Assembly: GCA_029972225.1 (NCBI GenBank)
Contig: CP124756.1
Coordinates: 1,222,001 to 1,286,000, forward strand
Direction of reading: 5' to 3'
Length of the DNA: 64,000 nucleotides
Source: Candidatus Thiothrix putei
Lineage (GTDB): Bacteria; Pseudomonadota; Gammaproteobacteria; Thiotrichales; Thiotrichaceae
This document shows positions 49,261-62,267 of the stretch, one piece after another; position 1 is the stretch's first letter, and every line of letters starts with the position of its first letter. The notes beneath the pieces are model-generated. The model was not told the DNA's origin and ran no database searches. It saw only the letters and a program-made list of their open reading frames with translations. Made by a program: the position numbers and the translations under genes.

Positions 49261-49748
49261 AGCCAGTGCTTTGCTATATTGGTTTAGGCAGTAATTTAGG
49301 TAATCCCACTGCCAATCTGCATTCTGCCATTGCGCAACTGTCCGGTGTTGAGGGCATTGAGTTGCGGGGCGTATCCCGCTTTTATGTGAGCAAACCGATG
49401 GGGCCGCAAGACCAACCGGATTATGTGAACGCGGTGGTTGGTATCCAAACCCGCTTTGCTGCACATGATTTGCTGCAAATCCTCTTTACGGTGGAACGGG
49501 CGCATGGGCGGGTGCGCGATGCCAGCCAGCGCTGGGGTGCGCGAACTTTGGATCTCGATTTGCTGCTTTACGGTGATGCTGTGATTGCGACTGCCGATTT
49601 GCACGTACCGCATCCCGGTATTTGTGAACGTTCCTTTGTGCTATTACCCTTGGCTGATCTTGCACCGCATCAGGTGTTTCCTGACGGGCGTAAGTTGCAA
49701 GATTGCCTCGCGGCCTTGGCATGTGATGATCTTCAGCCGCTGGGTTGA
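49257..49748 (+). CDS. folK: 2-amino-4-hydroxy-6-hydroxymethyldihydropteridine diphosphokinase
   Basis: 163-residue pyrophosphokinase of folate synthesis. Signatures are CYIGLGSNLGNPTANLHSAI, SRFYVSKPMGPQDQPDYVNAV and the catalytic RVRDASQRWGARTLDLDLLLYG. PHPGICERSFVLLPLADLAP follows. The start overlaps the pcnB stop (ATGA). The 3' end overlaps the end of the convergent RND permease gene by 16 nt, so no separate terminator exists between them. Confidence 0.96.
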   Translation: MKPVLCYIGLGSNLGNPTANLHSAIAQLSGVEGIELRGVSRFYVSKPMGPQDQPDYVNAVVGIQTRFAAHDLLQILFTVERAHGRVRDASQRWGARTLDLDLLLYGDAVIATADLHVPHPGICERSFVLLPLADLAPHQVFPDGRKLQDCLAALACDDLQPLG

Positions 49749-52700
49749 ACGACGTGCGTAAATGCTTGGTGTCCTTGCGTCATTTTGAACCACACGGTGT
49801 ATAACGCTGGTAAAAACAGCAGGGTCAACAGCGTTGCTACCAGTAAGCCGCCCATGATCGCAATTGCCATTGGCCCAAAGAATACGCTTTTCGATAGCGG
49901 GATCATTGCCAAAATCGCTGCCAATGCGGTGAGCATAATGGGGCGAAAACGCCGTACTGCGGCTTCAATCACTGCCTCACGTGGGACTTGCCCTTCGTCA
50001 ATATTGCGTTCAATCTGATCCAAAAGAATCACCGAATTGCGCATGATCATGCCGGAAAGTGCAATGGTTCCCAACATGGCGACAAAGCCAAACGGGCGGT
50101 TAAACAGCAATAGGAACAATGAAACTCCAATTAACCCAAAGGGAGCGGTTAGCACTACCATGATCACGCGCTGAAAACTTTGCAACTGAATCATGAGCAA
50201 AGTCAGTACCACCACGATGAACAGCGGGAAGCCTGCACCAATGGATTCATTGCCCTTAGCACTTTCTTCCACTGCCCCGCCGGTTTCCAACTTGTAACCT
50301 AACGGGAGTTTGGCTCGTATTTCTGGCAAGCGGGTTTCGACTTCTGCGGTCACGGTCGGTGCTTGAATTCTGCTGTAAATATCGCCGCGTACTGTGATGG
50401 TGCGGGTACGGTTGCGATGCCACAAAATACCTTCTTCTTGTACGTAGTCGATACTTGCCAGTTGCGACAACGGCACTGTTTTGCCGGTGGATGTCGGTAC
50501 ATTCAAGCCAGCCAGCCGCGAAATCATGTCACGTTCACCCTCGACACCGCGCAGCAAGATGGGAATGGTTTGGTCGTGTTCACGGAATTCGCCAATCGGC
50601 GTGCCGCTCAAAGTGCTTTGTAACACTTGCGACAGGGCGGATTGGGTGACACCGAGGCTGATGGCTTTTGCGGTATCCAGTTTGAGGCGAATCGCTTTGT
50701 TGCGTTCGTTCCAGTCCAGATGCACATTCACCAGATGCGGGTTGGCACGCATCACATTAGCGACTTGTTCGCCGAGGTCACGCAATGTCCACAAATCGTC
50801 ACCCGAAACGCGGAATTGCACCGGATAGCCGACAGGCGGGCCATTTTCCAAGCGAATCACCCGCCCACGCGCATGGGCAAATTGCCCACTATTGTCCAGT
50901 AACTCGATCAACTGACCGCGCAAGGTTTCACGATCGGCAATACTCTTGGTAGTAATCACGAACTGTGCAAAGCTGGCGGCAGGTAATTGCTGATCCAGCG
51001 GCAAGTAAAAGCGCGGTGAACCGTTGCCGACATACGCCACAAAATTCTCGACGTGCGCTTGCTGAGTATTTAAGTAGGTTTCCAGTTTATCCACTTCTGC
51101 TTGGGTGGCGTCTAACGACGAACCTTCAGGTAACTTCAGGTCAACGATCAATTCCAAGCGGGTGGCGTCCGGGAAAAACTGCTGTTGCACAAATTGGAAC
51201 ATGAAAATAGATCCGGCGAACGTCGCCACCGTCAGGACGATGACGGTCAGTGGGTATTGCACGCAAGCACGAATCAACCCCCGAAACCAGCGGTAAAATC
51301 CTTCGGCAAGATGGTGTTGGGCATCAAGCAAAGGTTTGAGCAGCCGCCCCATCACGCCCGTTTTTTTGGTGCTAGGGTCATGTGGCACATGATCCGGCAA
51401 TAATTTGTAGCCCAAATACGGGATGACAATGACTGCCGCAAACCACGAAATGACCAATGCAATCGTCACCACCTGAAAGATGGAGCGGGTAAACTCACCG
51501 ACCGACGATTGCGCCGTCGCAATCGGCAAAAAACCGGCTGCTGTCACCAGTGTTCCCGTCAGCATGGGGATCGCGGTGGTGGTGTAGGCGAAACTGGCGG
51601 CTTTGACCCGATCCCAGCCGTCTTCCATTTTCACCACCATCATTTCAATCGCGATAATGGCATCGTCCACCAATAGCCCCAGCGCCAGCACCAAGGAGCC
51701 TAATGAAATCTTGTGCAAACCAATACCGAACAGGTGCATCATGAAAAACGTCCCCGCCAATACCAGCGGAATGGAGAGTGCGACCACTGTTCCCGCCCGC
51801 ATTCCCAAGCTGATAAAACTCACCGCCAACACGATGATGATGGCTTCAGCCACCACTTGCAGGAATTCATTGATGGAGCGTTTGACGGCGGAAGGCTGGT
51901 CATTGACGCGGTGTAATTCCATGCCGATGGGGAGCTGGCTCTCGATGCGTACCAATGCGGTATCCAAGGATTTGCCCAGCGCAATAATATCGCCGCCTTT
52001 GCGCATCGACACGCCAATCCCCAAGGCTGCTTGCCCCTGATAGCGGAACGTGGAGTGTGGTGGGTCGGCATAGCCACGTTTTACCTCGGCGACTTCGCGG
52101 AGGCGCAAGGTGCGGTTGCCTAGATTGATTGGCAGGTTGCGGATGTCTTCCAGCTTGCTGAAAGCCCCTTCGGGACGCACGTAAATCCGGTCGTTATCCG
52201 TGTTATATGCACCCACTGCGGTGATGGTATTTTGTGCCTGCAATACGTCCACTAATTGTTGGACGCTGAAACCGAGGTTCGCCAGCTTGCTGTTGGAAAG
52301 TTCGATGGTGACACGTTCCTCTTGCTCACCAATGCTGAGGATTTTGGCGACATCTTTGACCAGTAATAGTTCTTTGCGGATATTATCAGCGGCATCACGC
52401 AATTGGGCGAAGTTGAAGCCATCCCCCGTCAGCGCAAAAATATTACCGTAGGTTTCGCCGAATTCGTCGTTGAAGGTGGGGCCAACCACCCCTTGCGGCA
52501 GGGTATGGCGCATATCCCCGACACGCTTACGAATGTCATAAAACATACCGGGCATGGCAGCAGAAGGCGCATCGTCTTTGGCTATGACGAAAATATTGGC
52601 TTCACCGGGGCGCGAAAAGCTGCGCACGACATCAATATAATCCGTTTCCAAAATGGTTTTTTCGATGCGCTCGGTGACTTGCGATTCCATTTCCTGCGCG

Positions 52701-52873
52701 GTAGCACCCGCCCAATACGCTTGCACCAGCATGACTTTAAAGGTGAAGGGCGGGTCTTCCGATTGCCCTAATTTGTTGTAGCCGAAAATACCCAAGCCTA
52801 GGGTCAGGATCATCAAATACAGCACAAAATTGCGGTGGCGTAGCGCCCATTCTGACAGGTTGAAGCTGCTCAT
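49733..52873 (-). CDS. RND efflux permease (first system)
   Basis: 1046-residue inner-membrane pump of the resistance-nodulation-division superfamily (AcrB type), exporting drugs or lipophilic compounds using the proton gradient. The N-terminus LSEWALRHRNFVLYLMILTL leads into the first porter loop. The proton-relay Asp-Asp is in LVDDAIIAIEMMVVKM (helix 4). Twelve membrane helices and two large periplasmic loops are expected from the length. It overlaps its adaptor gene by ATGA. The substrate is unknown. No outer-membrane TolC-like gene is in the window. Confidence 0.94.
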   Translation of the reverse strand: MSSFNLSEWALRHRNFVLYLMILTLGLGIFGYNKLGQSEDPPFTFKVMLVQAYWAGATAQEMESQVTERIEKTILETDYIDVVRSFSRPGEANIFVIAKDDAPSAAMPGMFYDIRKRVGDMRHTLPQGVVGPTFNDEFGETYGNIFALTGDGFNFAQLRDAADNIRKELLLVKDVAKILSIGEQEERVTIELSNSKLANLGFSVQQLVDVLQAQNTITAVGAYNTDNDRIYVRPEGAFSKLEDIRNLPINLGNRTLRLREVAEVKRGYADPPHSTFRYQGQAALGIGVSMRKGGDIIALGKSLDTALVRIESQLPIGMELHRVNDQPSAVKRSINEFLQVVAEAIIIVLAVSFISLGMRAGTVVALSIPLVLAGTFFMMHLFGIGLHKISLGSLVLALGLLVDDAIIAIEMMVVKMEDGWDRVKAASFAYTTTAIPMLTGTLVTAAGFLPIATAQSSVGEFTRSIFQVVTIALVISWFAAVIVIPYLGYKLLPDHVPHDPSTKKTGVMGRLLKPLLDAQHHLAEGFYRWFRGLIRACVQYPLTVIVLTVATFAGSIFMFQFVQQQFFPDATRLELIVDLKLPEGSSLDATQAEVDKLETYLNTQQAHVENFVAYVGNGSPRFYLPLDQQLPAASFAQFVITTKSIADRETLRGQLIELLDNSGQFAHARGRVIRLENGPPVGYPVQFRVSGDDLWTLRDLGEQVANVMRANPHLVNVHLDWNERNKAIRLKLDTAKAISLGVTQSALSQVLQSTLSGTPIGEFREHDQTIPILLRGVEGERDMISRLAGLNVPTSTGKTVPLSQLASIDYVQEEGILWHRNRTRTITVRGDIYSRIQAPTVTAEVETRLPEIRAKLPLGYKLETGGAVEESAKGNESIGAGFPLFIVVVLTLLMIQLQSFQRVIMVVLTAPFGLIGVSLFLLLFNRPFGFVAMLGTIALSGMIMRNSVILLDQIERNIDEGQVPREAVIEAAVRRFRPIMLTALAAILAMIPLSKSVFFGPMAIAIMGGLLVATLLTLLFLPALYTVWFKMTQGHQAFTHVVQPSG

Positions 52874-53946
52874 GCGCCCGCCTTGCCATCATACGGGATG
52901 GGGTTGATGATTTGCCCATTGCTCAGTTTGTGGACTCCGGCAGCAATGATTTTTGTGCCTGCTGGTAAGCCTGTCACGGTAACGCCTGTTTCGTGAAAAG
53001 CAGTTACGGTGACGGGCTGCAATTGCACTTGGTTGTCGGTATTCACTACCCACACGGCGGTTTGCTGGCCTTGTTGGAACAGTGCCGAAGCGGGCAACCA
53101 GCGGTCGTCGTTGGTGTGAATGTTGGCGAGGCTGACATCTGCTGTTACGCCTAGACGTAAATCGGGTGGCGGGTTCAACAAGCTGATTTTGACCAGAAAG
53201 CTGCGGGTAGTGTCGGTCGTGGGTGATACTTCGCGGACTTTGCCCTGAAAGACAGTGTTGGGTTGTGACCAGAGTTTGATGTCAGTGAGTGCACCTGTTT
53301 GCAGGGTTTGTACGGTGGTTTCGCCGACACGGATGTGGACTTCACGTTCACCTGCGTAAGCAATGCGGGCAACCGGTGTCCCGGCCGCAACCACTTGCCC
53401 CACTTCGATGTTGACTTGCGTGATAACGCCTGCTTGTGCGGCGCGTAATTCGGTGTAACCTGCTTGGTTGCCGCTCAGTTTGAGTTGGGCTTTGGCAGCA
53501 GCTACTTTGGCAGCGGCGGCATCATGGGCAGCTTGGGCGTTATCTAATGCAGATTGCCCGATGAATTGCTTGCGACGTAATTCGGCGACCCGTGCGAGTT
53601 CGGTTTTGGCGTTGGTGAAATCGGCTTCAGCGGCGGTCAGATTGGCACGAGCACTGCTTGTGTTCAGGTTTAAGTCAGTCGTATCAAGGCTGGCAAGCAC
53701 TTGCCCTGCGGTAACCGCATCGCCGACCTCGACGTTACGTGCCATCACTTTGCCACCGACGCGGAAGGCGAGATCGGCGGCTACCCGCGCTTGGGTTTCG
53801 CCGGAATAGGTTGCGCTGTTACGAGTGGCTTGGTCGCTGACTGTCCAAACTTGTGCGGGGCGGATGACGGTTGTGGGTGTTTCTGGCTCTTGACAGGCGC
53901 TGAGTGCCAGTAACAGTAGTAAGGGAAGAAAAGCTGAGTGCTTCAT
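52870..53946 (-). CDS. RND efflux periplasmic adaptor, lipoprotein (first system)
   Basis: 358-residue membrane fusion protein linking pump to outer membrane. The signal peptide HSAFLPLLLLLALSAC ends in a lipobox cysteine at residue about 19. The lipoyl half-motif GDAVTAGQVLASLDTTDL, the hairpin (about 100-165) and the second half QAGVITQVNIEVGQVVAAGTP follow. ATG 53946 follows GGAGAATCC and overlaps the tetR stop; an in-frame start at 54087 would lie inside tetR and lacks a signal peptide. It overlaps the permease by 4 nt. Confidence 0.93.
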   Translation of the reverse strand: MKHSAFLPLLLLLALSACQEPETPTTVIRPAQVWTVSDQATRNSATYSGETQARVAADLAFRVGGKVMARNVEVGDAVTAGQVLASLDTTDLNLNTSSARANLTAAEADFTNAKTELARVAELRRKQFIGQSALDNAQAAHDAAAAKVAAAKAQLKLSGNQAGYTELRAAQAGVITQVNIEVGQVVAAGTPVARIAYAGEREVHIRVGETTVQTLQTGALTDIKLWSQPNTVFQGKVREVSPTTDTTRSFLVKISLLNPPPDLRLGVTADVSLANIHTNDDRWLPASALFQQGQQTAVWVVNTDNQVQLQPVTVTAFHETGVTVTGLPAGTKIIAAGVHKLSNGQIINPIPYDGKAGA

Positions 53947-54581
53947 GGATTCTCCGGGGTCAGTGCGCCGCGCCATAACGCAGTCAAAGCATTTTCCAGC
54001 ATGAGCAGGTAATCGTTGGTGCAGGCACAGATCAGTGAACGTTCTTTCATCAATTCTTTGAGCGGGGTAGGGCGTAGCAGTTGCCATAATCCCAGAATGA
54101 GTGCGTAGCTTTGCAGCATCAGTGCTTGGTTGATCAAAGGGAAATGGCGTTGCAAGGCGGTCACTGTCGTATTGAGGCGAGCATAGGTGCGTTCCTCAAA
54201 AGCGTAACCCACTTCCAGAGGAATGTGCTTTTCCATCATGCCGTGGCATTGCGTTGCTAAGGGCAGGAAAATGGGGGTATCAAGCAGGAATTGGCGCTTG
54301 ATGGCGAACATATCGCCCATTACCATCGGCGTATCTTGCAATGCCCGTTGTGCGACACGGTTAAAAAACTCGGTTACATGGCGCTCATGGATGGCGAGAA
54401 ACAATTCTTCTTTGCTGCGGAAATACAGGTATACCGTGCCTTTTGCCACACCAGCCGCAGCGGCAATCTCAGCAACGTTCGTTATGCGGTCGGGTTGGGC
54501 AAGCCACTGCTGTTCAGCAGCATCCAAGATGGCTTCGCGGCGTTGTTCTTTGTCTTCGGGATTGGTGGCACGGATTTGCAT
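53943..54581 (-). CDS. TetR family repressor of efflux operon
   Basis: 212-residue repressor. The N-terminal helix-turn-helix is NVAEIAAAAGVAKGTVYLYFRSKEELF (residues about 36-62). The C-terminal ligand domain is diverse, as usual. It is the first gene of tetR-adaptor-permease and overlaps the adaptor by ATGA. Two TGAC-N5-GTCA palindromes lie directly upstream, the nearer one 2 nt from the start codon. The same pair occurs before the second RND operon, which has no regulator of its own, so this protein may control both. Confidence 0.93.
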   Translation of the reverse strand: MQIRATNPEDKEQRREAILDAAEQQWLAQPDRITNVAEIAAAAGVAKGTVYLYFRSKEELFLAIHERHVTEFFNRVAQRALQDTPMVMGDMFAIKRQFLLDTPIFLPLATQCHGMMEKHIPLEVGYAFEERTYARLNTTVTALQRHFPLINQALMLQSYALILGLWQLLRPTPLKELMKERSLICACTNDYLLMLENALTALWRGALTPENP

Positions 54582-54583
54582 AT

Positions 54584-54638
54584 AAATGACTGCTGGTCAG
54601 TTGTTTGTAAAGATTGTAAATGACCCACAGTCAGTTGT
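54584..54638. promoter_or_regulatory. Tandem TetR operators before tetR-RND operon 1
   Basis: Two copies of AAATGAC-N5-GTCAGTTGT at 54584-54604 (N5 TGCTG) and 54618-54638 (N5 CCACA), 34 bp apart. Each contains the palindrome TGAC-N5-GTCA. The near copy reaches within 2 nt of the tetR ATG and leaves no room for a normal ribosome binding site. Confidence 0.75.
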
Positions 54639-54674
54639 CTAGCGTATTGTTTCTTGCAGCGTTATCTCAATATC

Positions 54675-54709
54675 CATACAATTTGATGATCATGATGTGA
54701 GATTGTATG
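54675..54709. promoter_or_regulatory. Inverted repeat before DUF4143-type gene
   Basis: Perfect 8-bp arms CATACAAT (54675-54682) and ATTGTATG (54702-54709) around a centre containing ATGATCAT. It directly precedes the ATG at 54712 and could be an operator. Confidence 0.4.
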
Positions 54710-54711
54710 AA

Positions 54712-55899
54712 ATGCTAATACGTAACCTTGCCGTCACGCTGCGGCGACTCGCAACTGCCTTTCCTGTCGTGACTGTCACCGGCCCGCGTCAGTCGGGTAA
54801 AACCACGTTGGTGCGTGCGCTGTTTGCGGATAAGCCTTATGTTACGTTGGAAGACCCTATCGAACGTGAGTTTGCCCGCGAAGACCCGCGTGGTTTTCTT
54901 GCCAGATTTGCCAGCGGCGCAATCTTTGATGAAGCCCAGCGCTGGCCTGATCTATTCTCTTATTTGCAAGGCATGGTGGATAATGACCGGCAAGCGGGGC
55001 GTTTCATTTTGACTGGCTCACAACAGTTTGGTTTGTTAGCAGGGGTATCGCAATCTTTAGCCGGGCGAGCAGGTGTTACCCGTCTGTTACCGCTCACCGC
55101 CGATGAAATACCCGCAGTCAGTCAGGGTGACATTAGCCTGAATCAGTTATTACTGACGGGGGGCTACCCCACGTTGCATACGCAAGTCATACAGCCACAC
55201 GATTGGTTTGCCAGTTATGTTGCCACGTATGTTGAACGTGACGTGCGCCAAATCATTAATGTGCAAGACCTGAGTACTTTTCAACGGTTTCTGCGTTTAT
55301 GTGCCGGACGTACTGGGCAATTATTGAACCTGAATGGTTTAGCCAGCGAAACCGGGATTTCCCATACCACCGCCCGTGCGTGGATGTCGGTGCTAGAATC
55401 CAGCGGTCTGGTGCATTTACTGCCCCCTTATCACCGCAATTTCGGCAAACGTTTGGTCAAAACGCCCAAACTGTACTTCATTGATACCGGATTAGCGTGT
55501 TGGTTGTTGGGCATCCGTGCTGAAGAACACCTCGCCTTACACCCTTTGCGCGGTGAGTTATTTGAAACCTGGGTCATCAGTGAATGCCTGAAAGCGCGTT
55601 ACAATGCGGGTTTGCCTGCCGACTTGTATTTCTGGCGCGACAATAACGGGGTGGAGGCGGATTTGGTTTTCGAGTCTGGCAACCAATTGCAAACCGTTGA
55701 AATTAAATCGGGGCAAACCATCACCAGTGATTACATCAAAGCCGGTAAACGTTCCACCGCTTTTGCTGCTGGTGAAGCAACGTTAACACCTTGGTTGATA
55801 CATGGCGGTACGGATAATTACTTGCGCAGTGGCGTTGAGGTGATTGGTTGGCAACGACTTGCTCGTAAATTTGTATACAATAGCCCAATCATCGACTAA
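54712..55899 (+). CDS. AAA ATPase with DUF4143 domain
   Basis: 395-residue protein of the widespread AAA_14/DUF4143 family of unknown function. Walker A is VTGPRQSGKTTLVRALF (about residue 25). The Walker B-like segment ASGAIFDEAQRWPDLF and a sensor, RFILTGSQQF, follow. The C-terminal part contains a winged-helix region (NLNGLASETGISHTTARAW) and the DUF4143 nuclease-like segment GVEADLVFESGNQLQTVEIKSG. The ATG at 54712 fits the family start; a GTG at 54697 is in frame. It stands between the two efflux operons, 17 nt before yajD. Confidence 0.85.
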   Translation: MLIRNLAVTLRRLATAFPVVTVTGPRQSGKTTLVRALFADKPYVTLEDPIEREFAREDPRGFLARFASGAIFDEAQRWPDLFSYLQGMVDNDRQAGRFILTGSQQFGLLAGVSQSLAGRAGVTRLLPLTADEIPAVSQGDISLNQLLLTGGYPTLHTQVIQPHDWFASYVATYVERDVRQIINVQDLSTFQRFLRLCAGRTGQLLNLNGLASETGISHTTARAWMSVLESSGLVHLLPPYHRNFGKRLVKTPKLYFIDTGLACWLLGIRAEEHLALHPLRGELFETWVISECLKARYNAGLPADLYFWRDNNGVEADLVFESGNQLQTVEIKSGQTITSDYIKAGKRSTAFAAGEATLTPWLIHGGTDNYLRSGVEVIGWQRLARKFVYNSPIID

Positions 55900-55916
55900 C
55901 AATTGAGGAATCCACT

Positions 55917-56267
55917 ATGAAGGCCGACCACGCCAAAATTGTACTGAATGCCCGTAAAAATGCCGACGAACGCGCCAAAGGCTACCGCGAACAAGCCTTG
56001 AAGCTGTACCCGTGGATTTGTGGGCGTTGTGCGCGGGAATTCACGCACGCCAATTTGCGCGAATTGACCGTGCATCACCGCGATCATAACCACGACAATA
56101 ACCCGCCAGATGGCAGCAACTGGGAGCTGTTGTGCTTGTATTGCCACGATAATGAACATCAAAAGTTAATCGAAGCCGAGCACGGCGGTTCCGCCGGAAC
56201 CAGTGGTCCTGCGGCAGCAACGCACAACCCGTTTGCCGATTTGAAAGCGAAGATGCAGAAAAAATAG
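55917..56267 (+). CDS. yajD: YajD family HNH nuclease
   Basis: 116-residue small HNH-motif protein related to E. coli YajD. Metal-binding Cys pairs are CGRC (about residue 36) and CLYCH (about 75). The HNH core is LTVHHRDHNHDNNPPDGSNW. The C-terminal tail is low in complexity (GGSAGTSGPAAATHNP). Its role is unknown. It lies 17 nt after the ATPase gene and ends 8 nt from the convergent RND permease. Confidence 0.85.
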   Translation: MKADHAKIVLNARKNADERAKGYREQALKLYPWICGRCAREFTHANLRELTVHHRDHNHDNNPPDGSNWELLCLYCHDNEHQKLIEAEHGGSAGTSGPAAATHNPFADLKAKMQKK

Positions 56268-56275
56268 GCTACTGT

Positions 56276-59200
56276 TTACGATGATGACGTTTTCGTTTCC
56301 GCATGGTGTAGTTTTCCCCTTATTTTGCGGAAACCCACCAAAATATCATCAATAAACGTAAACACCACCGGAATCACCAGCAAACTGAGGAAGGTGGATG
56401 CCAGTAATCCGCCAATCACCACAATGGCCATCGGTTGGCGGAAGCTGGGGTCTGCTGCCAACCCTAGAGCCGTCGGCATCATCCCCGCACCCATCGCAAT
56501 CGTGGTCATCACAATCGGTCTTGCCCGCTTGTGGCAAGCATCCAGTAGCGCATCGACACGCCCTTTTTGGTCACGTTCCCGCGCCATGACGGCATAATCC
56601 ACCAGCAAGATCGAGTTTTTGGTCACGATTCCCATCAACATCAGCAAGCCAATGACCGCAGGCATCGAGAAACTCATGCCAGTTATCAGCAACGCCACGA
56701 ATGCCCCGCCCACCGACAAAGGCAATGCCGCCAAAATCGTGATCGGCTGTAAAAAGTCGTGGAACAGCAATACCAGCACGATGTAAATCAGCATGACCCC
56801 GATCAGCATTGCCCCGCCGAAACCGCCGAACAGTTCCGCCATCCGCTCGGCATCGCCGGAACTCTGGCGATGCACACCGGGGGGCAGGGTTTGCAGACTG
56901 GGCAGTTTATCGACCATTGCCGTGACTTGTCCGACCGGCAAGCCGTTCAGTTCCACATCAATACTCACATTGCGCATCCGGTCGAAGCGGTCAAGCCGTG
57001 CTGGGCCGCTGCCCAGCTTTATATCGGCGACGGCTGCCAACGGCACGGAACCGTTGCGCCCCGGAATCCGCAACTGGCGGATGGTGTCGAGGTCTGCACG
57101 TACTGTTTTGTCAAATTGCACCCGGATCGGGATTTGACGCTGTGGCAAATTCAGTTTCGGCAGGCGGGTTGAAAAGTCACCACTGGTTGCCACCCGCACC
57201 ACGCTGCCCAAGGTTTCTGTGCTGACGCCCAATTCGGCAGCACGGGCGTAATCGGGCTTGATGTGGATTTCCGGGCGTTGCAGGCTGGCTCCTGATACGA
57301 CGTTGCCGATGCCCTGTAAGGTGCGTAAATCGCGCTCGGCAGCGCGTGCGGCGGTAAGCAGTGTGTCGCCATCGTCGCTGGCGAGTACCACTTGCATCTT
57401 ATCGCCCGCACCACCCGAACCGACGGTGAAACGTACTCCCGGCAAGGGTTTCAGGGTTTGGCGAATTTCGGCTTCCACTTCTGTTTGTTTGCGTGAGCGT
57501 TCTTCGCGAGTGGTCAGGGTGAGTGTTAAGGTCGCTTTGCGCACATCTGCACCACCGCCTTCACTAATCGGGCCGCTACTCACGCCACTGGATGCACCCA
57601 CCAAGGTAAAGACTTGTTTGACATCGGCAAGTGGTTCCAGCAAGTGGCGGGCTTGTTCAGCAGTCGCGTAGGTTTCTTCCAGCGTACTACCCGGTTGCAA
57701 TTCTAGGGTGACTGAGGTTAGTGCGGTATCCGCCGGTGGTACAAAACCTTTGGGCAATAGCGGTACAATTTGCAGCGAGGCCACAAAAATCACAATAGCT
57801 GCTACCAAGGTGATGATGCGGTGTTTTAAACACCATCCCGCTGCTTGCATGTAAGTACGCATGAACCAGCCATCTTTGAGCGGCTTTTCCGGGTGAGGTT
57901 TAAGCATATAAGCCGCCATCATTGGCGTGAGTAAGCGGGCGACGGCGAGTGAGAAAAACACGGCAACGGCGGCAGTAATTCCAAACGATTTAAAGAATTT
58001 ACCCGGTACGCCGCCCATGAATGCCGTTGGCAAAAATACAGCAACCAGTGTAAACGTGGTGGCAATCACCGCCAGACCGATTTCATCAGCAGCTTCGATA
58101 GCGGCTTGTTTGGGGGTTTTGCCCATACGCAAGTGGCGTTCGATGTTTTCGACTTCCACGATGGCATCATCGACCAAGACCCCCACGACTAACGCCAATG
58201 CCAGTAGGGTGAGAATATTCAGCGAGAAGCCGAAATATTGCATCGCCATGAAGGTGGGGATAATCGCCAAGGGTAAGGCCGCCGCCGATACCAGTGTTGC
58301 CCGCCAGTTGCCTAAGAATAGGAATACCACCAGAATTGCCAACGCAGCACCTTCGTACAACAAGTGCATGGAGCCTTCGTAGTTGGCTTGAATGCGTTCG
58401 ATGGTGTCGTAGGCTTCTGCAATCTGAACCTGTGGATGGGCAGTGGAGAAGGTGGCAAGTGCCGCCCGCACACCTTCCACTACATCAATTTCACTGGCAC
58501 CGCGTACCCGCGTGATCTGAAAGCCGACCACGGATTTGCCATCCAGCAGGGCATGGGTGGCACGTTCAGCGATGGTGTCGCGGATGGTGGCTATTTGATC
58601 AAGTCTTACATGACGTCCGTTGCTGAGTGGAATGTCAATAGCACCAAGTTCTGCGGCGGTGCCGACGCGGCCTAAGGTGCGCACGGACTGAATGCCCCCG
58701 CCAATGTCACCGCGCCCACCCGGTGCGTCTTGCTGCATTTGCCCCAAACGGTTGGATACGTCGGCGGCAGTAACGCCCAGTCCCGCCATGAGTGCAGGGT
58801 TAAGGTCAATGCGAACTTCGCGGTTGACGCCGCCCACCCGTGCGACGTTGCCTACACCTTTGACGGACATCAGGGTGCGGGTAATGTCGTTGTCCACGAA
58901 CCATGACAGGGCTTCTTCGTCCATATTGGCGGAAGCGACTGTGAACGTGATCAGCGGGCTACCTGCCGTGGTGACTTTCGATACAATCGGGTCGTTCATC
59001 TGCTGGGGCAGATTGGCGCGAATGGTGTCCACCGCGTTGCGCACTTCGTTGAGGGCGACTTCGGTATCTTTGGCGATGTCAAATTCGGTGGCAATGCTTG
59101 CCGAACTGTCGGTCAGCGTGGTGCGGATGTGCTTGACGCCAGTGATGGTGGCAAGCTGGTTTTCGATCTTGCGGGCAACTTCGCTTTCCAACTGTTCCGG

Positions 59201-59365
59201 GTCAGCGCCTTCCAGCGAGGCATTGACGATGATGGTAGGCAGGTCAATGTCGGGGAAGTTCTGGATGCCAAGTGCCTTGAAACCTTTGACGCCCAGAAAG
59301 CTGAGTAGCGCGAATAGCAGAATTGCCGGAACCGGGTTGCGGATCGACCAAGCGGAAACGTTCAT
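56276..59365 (-). CDS. RND efflux permease (second system)
   Basis: 1029-residue RND pump of the same superfamily as the first but clearly a different branch. The N-terminus VSAWSIRNPVPAILLFALLS leads the first loop. LVDDAIVEVENIERHLRMGK carries the Asp pair. FHDFLQPITILAALPLSVGG and MGIVTKNSILLVDYAV are typical of the C-terminal helices. It overlaps its adaptor by ATGA. The substrate is not known. Its operon has no local regulator gene but shares operators with the first system. Confidence 0.94.
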   Translation of the reverse strand: MNVSAWSIRNPVPAILLFALLSFLGVKGFKALGIQNFPDIDLPTIIVNASLEGADPEQLESEVARKIENQLATITGVKHIRTTLTDSSASIATEFDIAKDTEVALNEVRNAVDTIRANLPQQMNDPIVSKVTTAGSPLITFTVASANMDEEALSWFVDNDITRTLMSVKGVGNVARVGGVNREVRIDLNPALMAGLGVTAADVSNRLGQMQQDAPGGRGDIGGGIQSVRTLGRVGTAAELGAIDIPLSNGRHVRLDQIATIRDTIAERATHALLDGKSVVGFQITRVRGASEIDVVEGVRAALATFSTAHPQVQIAEAYDTIERIQANYEGSMHLLYEGAALAILVVFLFLGNWRATLVSAAALPLAIIPTFMAMQYFGFSLNILTLLALALVVGVLVDDAIVEVENIERHLRMGKTPKQAAIEAADEIGLAVIATTFTLVAVFLPTAFMGGVPGKFFKSFGITAAVAVFFSLAVARLLTPMMAAYMLKPHPEKPLKDGWFMRTYMQAAGWCLKHRIITLVAAIVIFVASLQIVPLLPKGFVPPADTALTSVTLELQPGSTLEETYATAEQARHLLEPLADVKQVFTLVGASSGVSSGPISEGGGADVRKATLTLTLTTREERSRKQTEVEAEIRQTLKPLPGVRFTVGSGGAGDKMQVVLASDDGDTLLTAARAAERDLRTLQGIGNVVSGASLQRPEIHIKPDYARAAELGVSTETLGSVVRVATSGDFSTRLPKLNLPQRQIPIRVQFDKTVRADLDTIRQLRIPGRNGSVPLAAVADIKLGSGPARLDRFDRMRNVSIDVELNGLPVGQVTAMVDKLPSLQTLPPGVHRQSSGDAERMAELFGGFGGAMLIGVMLIYIVLVLLFHDFLQPITILAALPLSVGGAFVALLITGMSFSMPAVIGLLMLMGIVTKNSILLVDYAVMARERDQKGRVDALLDACHKRARPIVMTTIAMGAGMMPTALGLAADPSFRQPMAIVVIGGLLASTFLSLLVIPVVFTFIDDILVGFRKIRGKLHHAETKTSSS

Positions 59366-60450
59366 GGTTTATCCCCGGTGCTGGTGGCAGTGGGTTTGTC
59401 TACCACTTGTACAGTATCACCATCGTTGAGAAAACCACCACCCGTCACGACCACGCGGGCAGTCGCCGTAACGCCGTCAATGATTTCGGTTTGACCTTGT
59501 GTGGTTCTGCCGACTTTGACCGGGCGCTGGGTGACTTTGTTGGCTGCGCCTACCTCAAACACGTAGTAATTGCCATCGCGCAGGATCACAGCGGATTGTG
59601 GCAACGTCATGGCTGGTGCCGAACCGGTGAGAATTTCGCCTTCTGCAAACATGCCTGCTTTGGCAGGGCTGTCGCTGGGTAGGCTGATGTAGACCAGTGC
59701 ATTGCGGGTGTTGGGGTCGAGTGTGGGGGAAACCATGCGTATTTCGCCAGTGACGTTTTCACCACCGGGGAGAGTCAGGTGTGCCTGTTGCCCCGGCTGG
59801 ATGCGGGAGGTGTCACGCCCGGAAACTTCGGCTCGCCATTCGAGCTTGTTCTGACGCACCATGCGGAAGAGTTCTGTGCCGGTTTGCACGACAGCACCGA
59901 GAGTGGCGGTGCGGGCGGCGATTACGCCGTCATCGGGGGCGAGGATACGGGTTTGGGCAAGGCGGATTTGTTGGGCTTCAAGCGCGGCTTTGGCAACGGC
60001 CTCCGCTGTTAAGTACTGGTCAATTTGTTGGGTAGGTAATGCACCGCTGGATTTGAGGCTACGGGCGCGGTTGGCGTTGGCACGGGCTTCTTCCAGTTTG
60101 GCTTGGGCTTGCGCTACATCGGCTTTGACGGCAGCTTGCGATAGTTTGACGAGTTCTTGCCCTTTGTGGACTTCTGCACCGACATCCACTAGCACGTCGG
60201 TGATTTTCAGGCCGCTGATTTCAGAGGCGATAATGGCTTCCTGCCAAGGGGTGAGTGCGCCGCTGGCGGTAATGGTGGTGCTCCAGTCTTGCATTGTTGG
60301 GAGGGCAACACTGACCGCAAGAGCCGGGTTCGCTGCGGGAGCGGGGGCTGCGTCTTCTGCCTGTGCCGTGAGCAAGGGTAAACCTGAGAGGCTGGTGGCT
60401 AACAACAGCATGAGGAATAAACGAGGTGTTAGCACAGAAGTGTTGTTCAT
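59362..60450 (-). CDS. RND efflux periplasmic adaptor (second system)
   Basis: 362-residue membrane fusion protein. A cleavable signal peptide (RLFLMLLLATSLSGLPLLTAQA) precedes an Ala/Pro linker; there is no lipobox cysteine, unlike the adaptor of the first system. The lipoyl segment VDVGAEVHKGQELVKLSQAA and a shorter hairpin follow, then ILAPDDGVIAARTATLGAVV. It is first gene of the operon and overlaps the permease by 4 nt. The operator pair ends 2 nt before its ATG, again leaving no clear ribosome binding site. Confidence 0.92.
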   Translation of the reverse strand: MNNTSVLTPRLFLMLLLATSLSGLPLLTAQAEDAAPAPAANPALAVSVALPTMQDWSTTITASGALTPWQEAIIASEISGLKITDVLVDVGAEVHKGQELVKLSQAAVKADVAQAQAKLEEARANANRARSLKSSGALPTQQIDQYLTAEAVAKAALEAQQIRLAQTRILAPDDGVIAARTATLGAVVQTGTELFRMVRQNKLEWRAEVSGRDTSRIQPGQQAHLTLPGGENVTGEIRMVSPTLDPNTRNALVYISLPSDSPAKAGMFAEGEILTGSAPAMTLPQSAVILRDGNYYVFEVGAANKVTQRPVKVGRTTQGQTEIIDGVTATARVVVTGGGFLNDGDTVQVVDKPTATSTGDKP

Positions 60451-60452
60451 GT

Positions 60453-60508
60453 TAATGACTGCCGGTCAATTGATTAGGGCGAATCTTAAATGACCAACAG
60501 TCAGTTGT
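60453..60508. promoter_or_regulatory. Tandem TetR operators before RND operon 2
   Basis: Two copies of the same operator seen at 54584-54638: TAATGAC-TGCCG-GTCAATTGA at 60453-60473 and AAATGAC-CAACA-GTCAGTTGT at 60488-60508, 35 bp apart. Confidence 0.75.
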
Positions 60509-60610
60509 CGAGTGTTTCGCGTTTCACGTCCCATACCCCTAGTGTATGTGCTTGGCTGTTGTGATTTTGATTTTAACCATCCTCAATTATTGATACCGCT
60601 TGTGCTGCGG

Positions 60611-60865
60611 TCATGATTTGTATAAGTCAGCATCGCCTGTTATCAGACAGTCTGCTTTGCCCGCTAATGCCACATCCAGAAACGGGTTGTCTTTTTTGTC
60701 ACGGCACAGTTCTACCGTTTCCCCAATTTCATAGAACAGTCCCACCCGGCGCATGTTGTTGAGGAAATTCTGCCGTTTTTCGGTTGAAAAGTAGCGGTCA
60801 AACTTTTCCCGCCAGATAACTTCCTCCAACTCGGCAAACGTGGTTGTCGCAGACACAGCGTTCAA
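60611..60865 (-). pseudogene. Truncated PIN-domain toxin
   Basis: 84 residues matching the middle of the TIGR00305-type PIN toxin family: TTFAELEEVIWREKFDRYFS and DNPFLDVALAGKADCLITGD. The first about 30 residues, with the invariant LDTN catalytic Asp, are missing. The C-terminal strand and helix after GDADL are also absent. The TTG start overlaps the antitoxin stop, but the body lacks a complete active site, so it is probably inactive. Confidence 0.65.
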
Positions 60866-61155
60866 GGCTTGTCATTCAGGATCGCTTCCAGCACGGATTC
60901 CGTCAGACCACTTTGTTCCGCTTCAGTGCGCAAAGCGTCCAGTGAAGCCAACAACTGCTGGCGTTCCTGCTGCATGGCTTCTGCCCGCCTGCGGAGCAGG
61001 AATGCTTCACCACCCAGCATTTCAAAATCCCGCATGGACAGGATAACGGCAGTGTCGCGTTTATTGCGGGTGATTTTGAACGGTTCACCCTGCCAGACTT
61101 TATCAAGCACTGCACCGAGCTGGTTACTGGCCTGACGTGCGCCGATGGATTGCAT
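60862..61155 (-). CDS. Phd/YefM family antitoxin
   Basis: 97-residue antitoxin. The N-terminal DNA-binding fold is IGARQASNQLGAVLDKVWQG, then PFKITRNKRDTAVILSMRDFE. A charged C-terminal helix (RRRAEAMQQERQQLL) would bind the toxin. It overlaps a truncated PIN gene downstream. An 18-bp perfect palindrome is centred about 42 nt upstream of the start, a likely autoregulatory operator. The antitoxin itself looks intact. Confidence 0.85.
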   Translation of the reverse strand: MQSIGARQASNQLGAVLDKVWQGEPFKITRNKRDTAVILSMRDFEMLGGEAFLLRRRAEAMQQERQQLLASLDALRTEAEQSGLTESVLEAILNDKP

Positions 61156-61328: not shown

Positions 61329-62267
61329 ATGCTGATCTTCCCCGGTAGCGTTGCCCTCTCCGAATTCCGCCGCAACAAGCTGTTGAGCGCCTTGCAAGCC
61401 ATCGTGCCCACGATCACCGCTGTGCAAGCCGAATACGTCCATTTCGTGCGCAACAGCCGCGAACTGCGCCCCGACGAACACGCCCAATTGCAAGCGTTGC
61501 TGACCTACGAAGAAGTGCAAGGCAGCCACGCGTTCAGCGGCACATTGCTGCTCGTCACCCCGCGCAAAGGCACGATTTCGCCCTGGTCAAGCAAAGCCAG
61601 CGACATCGCCCACAACTGCGGCTTGACGATGGTGGAACGCATCGAACGCGGCATTGCCTACGACGTGCAAACCACTGCCGCGCTGTCGGAAGCCGAGCGC
61701 CTCGCCATCGCCGCGCTGTTGCACGACCGCATGACCGAAATGGTACTAACCGACCTGCAAGATGCCGTTGTGCTGTTCAGCGAAGCCGAACCTGCCGCCT
61801 TGCGCTACGTGGACATCAGCAATGACCCCAAAGCCGCACTCGCCAAAGCCAACACCGACTGGGGCTTGGCACTGTCAGCGGATGAAATCGACTACCTCGC
61901 GGAAAATTACGCCGAACTCCAGCGTAACCCCACCGACGTCGAATTGATGATGTTCGCGCAAGCCAATTCCGAACATTGCCGCCACAAAATCTTCAACGCC
62001 GACTGGATTATCGACGGCAAAGAACAGCCCAAATCGCTGTTTGCCATGATCCGCAACACCCACGCGCACGCGCCCGAAGGCATCCTCTCCGCCTACCATG
62101 ACAACGCCTCCGTGATCGAAGGCCCGTTGGCAACGCGCTTTTTGACCGACGTAAAAACCGGCGAATACCACTACACCAATGAACCCGTCCACATCCTGAT
62201 GAAGGTGGAAACCCACAACCACCCCACCGCGATTTCCCCTTCCCCATTTGCAGGTGCTGTAATATGA
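61329..62267 (+). pseudogene. purL: Phosphoribosylformylglycinamidine synthase, 5' fragment
   Basis: The first about 305 codons of PurL (normally about 1290), the purine-synthesis amidotransferase. The sequence matches closely from GSVALSEFRRNKLLSALQA through TPRKGTISPWSSKASDIAHN, FAQANSEHCRHKIFNADWI and LMKVETHNHPTAISP. After AISP the expected continuation (PGAATGSGGEIRDEG) is lost and the frame ends after nine more codons (SPFAGAVI). Downstream DNA is AT-rich and unrelated. All ATP-binding and glutaminase domains are missing, so this copy cannot work. Confidence 0.88.

Follow-up and report, generated by a model that had tools for sequence, protein, structure and literature searches.

Putative tandem operators of a TetR-family repressor at two RND efflux operons in Candidatus Thiothrix putei and its relatives

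The window, a 64,000-nucleotide stretch of the Candidatus Thiothrix putei genome, carries two operons for RND-type efflux pumps, both encoded on the minus strand. Operon 1 consists of a gene for a TetR-family repressor followed by the genes for a periplasmic adaptor and a permease, and operon 2 of adaptor and permease genes. The five genes are:

49733..52873, minus strand: permease 1, MexK-like RND permease
52870..53946, minus strand: adaptor 1, RND periplasmic adaptor subunit
53943..54581, minus strand: tetR, 212-residue TetR-family repressor (TetR_N + TetR_C_34), first gene of operon 1
56276..59365, minus strand: permease 2, AcrB-type RND permease (best solved match MdtB)
59362..60450, minus strand: adaptor 2, RND periplasmic adaptor subunit, first gene of operon 2

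The TetR protein matches PF00440 (TetR_N) with its N-terminal helix-turn-helix (54.5 bits vs. a cut-off of 24) and PF17929 (TetR_C_34) with its helical C-terminal ligand-binding domain (41.9 bits vs. a cut-off of 26.3). It does not reach the NCBIfam equivalog cut-offs for AcrR (35.4 bits vs. 271) or MtrR (38.7 bits vs. 280). Compared with solved structures, permease 1 scores 1307.6 bits against MexK, 896.5 bits against 6vej, and about 205 bits against the next match, and permease 2 finds its best solved match in MdtB with 398 bits. Neither operon includes an outer-membrane gene according to the list of open reading frames. As stated in the original prediction, operon 2 has no regulator gene of its own; no TetR gene adjoins it.

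Upstream of each operon lie two TGAC-N5-GTCA palindromes, four in total:

54587..54599, minus strand: near operator core of tetR, TGAC-N5-GTCA, conserved in 16/16 genus genomes
54621..54633, minus strand: distal operator core of tetR, within the 17-bp spacer of the predicted promoter
60456..60468, minus strand: near operator core of adaptor 2, its 21-mer with three mismatches, core intact
60491..60503, minus strand: distal operator core of adaptor 2, within the 17-bp spacer of the predicted promoter

The extended 21-mer AAATGAC-N5-GTCAGTTGT occurs as an exact copy at 54584-54604, 54618-54638, and 60488-60508. The fourth copy, nearest to operon 2 at 60453-60473, deviates at three positions (TAATGACTGCCGGTCAATTGA), all outside the intact TGAC-N5-GTCA core. 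At a stringency of three mismatches, we observed 5 matches to the 21-mer, one of which is the near tetR site counted again on the opposite strand, compared with a mean of 0.63 in shuffled sequence. The two sites are spaced by 34 bp upstream of tetR and by 35 bp upstream of adaptor 2, and at each promoter 2 nt separate the near 21-mer, and 5 nt its core, from the ATG. The same tandem operator is thus found at both operons, with the end of the near 21-mer 2 nt from the start codon, as had been predicted. A genome-wide search for further copies, which had been suggested as well, returned only the known sites: the tighter pattern TGACYNNNRGTCARTTG has exactly four matches in the complete 4.28 Mb genome, all at these two promoters, and the reversed pattern used as a control has zero matches genome-wide.

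Of 76 promoters with a tandem pair, those belonging to four classes (16 tetR, 15 adaptor 2, 5 family, and 38 wider) were aligned class by class, with the distal site as the anchor. A TNGACA hexamer (TTGACA in the wider set) ends 2 bp 5′ of the distal site, and a TANNNT hexamer begins 2 bp 3′ of it; the distal operator therefore fills the 17-bp spacer between the −35 and −10 elements. This position is fixed across the aligned promoters and was overlooked in the first reading of the sequence. An independent promoter scan of the window recovers both hexamer pairs, the count of promoter-like matches in the region being not above chance. The conserved −10 element ends 31–32 nt upstream of the ATG. 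With the transcription start placed, by assumption, 7 nt after the −10 element, transcripts are predicted to begin at about 54606 for tetR and at about 60476 for adaptor 2, giving the following features:

54613..54641, minus strand: predicted promoter of tetR, TAGACA-17-TACAAT (promoter scan; hexamers conserved in the alignment)
54582..54606, minus strand: predicted 25-nt leader of tetR, mostly near operator, without a Shine-Dalgarno sequence
60483..60511, minus strand: predicted promoter of operon 2, TCGACA-17-TAAGAT (promoter scan; hexamers conserved in the alignment)
60451..60476, minus strand: predicted 26-nt leader of adaptor 2, mostly near operator, with a weak Shine-Dalgarno sequence at best

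The near operator core would cover about +8/+9 to +20/+21 of the predicted transcript. The inter-site spacing is 34–36 bp in the Thiothrix promoters; in the wider set, half of the promoters have a spacing of 31 bp.

Within the genus Thiothrix, the tandem pair is located upstream of tetR in all 16 genomes. We found 34 tandem pairs in the genus, of which one G057 pair was discounted as an artefact of overlap. The remaining 33 are distributed upstream of tetR (16), upstream of adaptor 2 (15, in 13 genomes), and directly upstream of a permease-2-like gene (2, in G051 and G058). The pair is present even where operon 2 lies far from tetR, at distances of about 2.5 Mb (G059), 1.7 Mb (G060), and 1.5 Mb (G061), and is kept where operon 2 resides on another contig than tetR (G049, G051, and G054). 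G048 has only the tetR pair and no match to adaptor 2, and the best adaptor match in G050, merely 54% identical, is without sites. Adaptor 2 of G062 retains the near site and has lost the distal one, which counts against the two-operon reading.

Two genus loci, from T. fructosivorans and a Thiothrix MAG (L128, 382-428, and L042, 1505-1561), have the tandem operator straight before a permease-2-like gene without an adaptor, where it possibly marks a third pump operon. G060 also contains single operator-like sites every 4482 bp (G060:C2:2270342-2274840 and 3158584-3167564), which suggests a 4.5-kb unit repeated in tandem; the repeated single TGACCATAAGTCAGTTG matches of this genome were excluded as belonging to such a multi-copy unit.

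In the family, the tandem pair occurs in 22 of the 24 genomes with this TetR vs. 2 of the 39 without it (Fisher p about 1e-12, a value that overstates independence because the genomes are related). The 24 include G047, in which the pair precedes a tetR start cut off by the contig end and overlooked by the protein search. Two TetR-positive family genomes, G040 and G045, have one exact site only, which also counts against the two-operon reading. A class-wide sample of 274 genomes, searched with a narrower pattern that does not reach the operon-2 spacing, gave one match besides this genome, upstream of a tetR-adaptor-1 homologue. Among 75 wider homologues (L132-L206), at least two exact sites are found in 32 of the 37 loci with a downstream adaptor-1 homologue vs. 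5 of the 38 without, two of five exceptions lacking upstream sequence. The operator cassette is widespread among tetR homologues of Proteobacteria and also occurs in two Chloroflexi MAGs. On the two Chloroflexi contigs (L193 and L194), the tetR homologues have the same tandem operators and no matching RND genes nearby.

Two further leads were discarded. The tandem pairs of TGACATATTGTCA in G003 and G012 fail the Y...R rule and were classed as a different palindrome; homologues of the tetR/RND genes are absent from these loci. The recognition helix AKGTVYLYF is common to homologues with and without sites, which counts against it as a link to operator presence.

The gene order in a marine relative, the MAG Modern_marine.mb.35 (L131, G063), connects the TetR protein with operon 2. 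There, the tandem operator is followed by adaptor 2, permease 2, and tetR, all in the same direction, with identities of 61–66%, 75%, and 69%, respectively. The single tandem pair of this genome lies upstream of adaptor 2, and its tetR has no operator of its own and is preceded by a Shine-Dalgarno-like GGGGAGG, as read directly from the sequence. The location of tetR inside operon 2 in this relative speaks more strongly than any other single finding for regulation of operon 2 by this TetR. No operon-1-type adaptor or permease follows tetR in the stretch examined; the arrangement, with tetR as the last gene of operon 2, may represent an ancestral or a rearranged state of the regulon.

We consider it probable, at roughly 85%, that the TetR protein encoded at 53943-54581 represses two RND efflux operons, among them its own. 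Autoregulation is suggested because tetR is the first gene of operon 1. The original prediction that one TetR serves both operons is strongly favored by the retention of the pair at unlinked operons 2 and by the position of tetR within operon 2 in the marine relative. In the proposed mechanism, TetR dimers would bind TGACYNNNRGTCA. A dimer bound at the distal site, between the −35 and −10 elements, would block RNA polymerase, and another one at the near site, just past the presumed transcription start, would reinforce the block. A ligand, probably a pump substrate, would free the repressor, and both pumps would be induced together. The short leader, mostly near operator and without a Shine-Dalgarno sequence, may hold translation of the first gene low, while the later genes carry Shine-Dalgarno-like sequences. 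The sites with their rarity and conservation and the linkage of the genes are direct results of the analysis; binding, repression, the inducer, and the transcription start are inferred, and all steps past site recognition are derived from knowledge of the TetR family.

Alternatively, TetR might control its own operon only, and the sites at operon 2 might remain from a promoter duplication or belong to another regulator. Duplication is indeed likely, as both promoters share the whole cassette from the −35 element to the start codon, and in G056 another TetR_N protein is encoded near the adaptor-2 copies. However, the pair is kept at unlinked operons throughout the genus, and each promoter class preserves its orthologous signature, which argues against a fresh copy. 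Recent gene conversion between the promoters is likewise not supported, since 31 of 33 nearest neighbors are orthologous and pairs from the same genome are no closer. Another TetR as the regulator of operon 2 was dismissed as well: the genome encodes three TetR_N proteins in total, and the two others have no tandem operator-type sites upstream. Together with the location of this tetR within operon 2 of the marine relative, these observations make control of operon 1 alone improbable.

The original prediction holds that the near operator replaces the ribosome binding site. The absence of such a site is borne out by the duplex energies, which are 0 before tetR and −2.3 kcal/mol (weak) before adaptor 2; it is conserved in the genus, with 0 to −2.9 kcal/mol for tetR and −1.5 to −2.3 kcal/mol for adaptor 2 across Thiothrix. 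About 61–75% of the long open reading frames in the window reach −4 or better; the absence of a Shine-Dalgarno sequence is a minority trait there, though not a rare one. The later genes carry Shine-Dalgarno-like sequences, namely GGAG before adaptor 1 (direct reading) and sequences with energies of −7.3 before permease 1 and −5.7 before permease 2.

Leaderless transcripts beginning at the ATG, as known for the TetR-family gene acuR (PMC3017554), would fit the missing Shine-Dalgarno sequences of both first genes. This part of the original prediction is nevertheless not upheld, and we regard it as unlikely: the conserved −35 and −10 elements around the distal operator predict that transcription begins some 25 nt before the ATG, the −10 element lies too far upstream for a leaderless transcript, its end implying a leader of 25–26 nt, and direct reading finds no −10-like hexamer 7–13 nt upstream of the ATG. 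It is somewhat less doubtful, though still unlikely, that the near operator also works in translation, where it would belong to the ribosome entry region and set or regulate translation of the first gene. It makes up most of the predicted leader, and in 11 wider homologues with the start 3 nt past the near operator, the near centers pair better with the anti-Shine-Dalgarno sequence than the distal ones (mean −5.2 vs. −3.1 kcal/mol, p = 0.02). In those 11, the near-operator center (e.g., TGACCGGGAGTCA) can provide a Shine-Dalgarno-like GGAG, which is seen in several wider tetR homologues. Homologue loci with longer gaps between operator and start show no such difference between near and distal sites. 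The Shine-Dalgarno sequence in the near-operator center of these relatives is suggestive only, given the modest p value and the relatedness of the loci, and the Thiothrix centers contain no such sequence. Moreover, the leader hairpin is weak (−2.3 kcal/mol), and loci with a far more distant start codon keep the near site as well, which suggests that it serves DNA binding. We would accordingly give only a small chance to a near operator that combines DNA operator and translation-initiation region in one, its center shaped into a Shine-Dalgarno sequence in one branch of relatives and not in Thiothrix, by which one 13-bp element would set both repression and first-gene translation. With TetR as the repressor of both operons, the circuit is solid and fairly ordinary, with an unusual ribosome-entry region; what sets it apart most is that operator and translation start share bases.

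Judged by the permease, the closest named system appears to be MexL-MexJK. MexJK of Pseudomonas aeruginosa is under the control of a TetR-type repressor whose gene lies upstream, and has an operon without an outer-membrane gene (PMC8300704). Permease 1 of Thiothrix is closest to MexK among solved structures, and a TetR-type gene likewise lies upstream, but Thiothrix has a second RND operon of the unlinked type carrying the same sites. AcrR, MtrR, and CmeR are well-known TetR-family repressors of their own RND pump operons (PMC8277102), whereas the match of the Thiothrix TetR to AcrR and MtrR is weak, mainly within the DNA-binding domain and far under the curated cut-offs. Among TetR-type first genes that have no Shine-Dalgarno sequence, the nearest parallel is AcuR of Rhodobacter sphaeroides, which controls DMSP catabolism; its transcript starts right at the AUG, with TAATAGAC-N6-GTCTATTA as the operator (PMC3017554). 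Both systems have a TetR-family first gene without a Shine-Dalgarno sequence, an operator overlapping the promoter, and downstream genes with Shine-Dalgarno sequences (PMC3017554). Thiothrix differs by the predicted leader of 25–26 nt, another operator, and pumps as the presumed targets. TetR/tetO and PA3973 have two neighboring palindromes at the promoter with 11 bp between them (PMC9736018), whereas the Thiothrix sites start 34–35 bp apart, one in the promoter spacer and one past the predicted transcription start.

We found nothing specific in the literature on this operator or on efflux regulation in Thiothrix, and the present analysis proposes a concrete two-pump regulon for the genus. It also yields an operator consensus, TGACYNNNRGTCA arranged in tandem, for a broad TetR subfamily that occurs in Proteobacteria and two Chloroflexi MAGs. 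With its distal site at a fixed place in the promoter spacer and its near site overlapping the start of translation, the cassette provides a clean case of operator and ribosome-binding constraints on the same bases.

The neighborhood of the operons contains several other genes. The stretch between the two operons (54697-56267) encodes, on the opposite strand, an AAA_14/DUF4143 ATPase and a small HNH endonuclease. Just upstream of operon 2 (60611-61155), we noticed a PIN-domain toxin-like and a Phd/YefM antitoxin-like open reading frame. The region 61329-62267 is a truncated 5′ part of purL, the intact copy of which is located just past the window (G000:C1:1286306-1290181); about 1.0 kb is duplicated between the two copies at 98.4% identity, with another gene in between.
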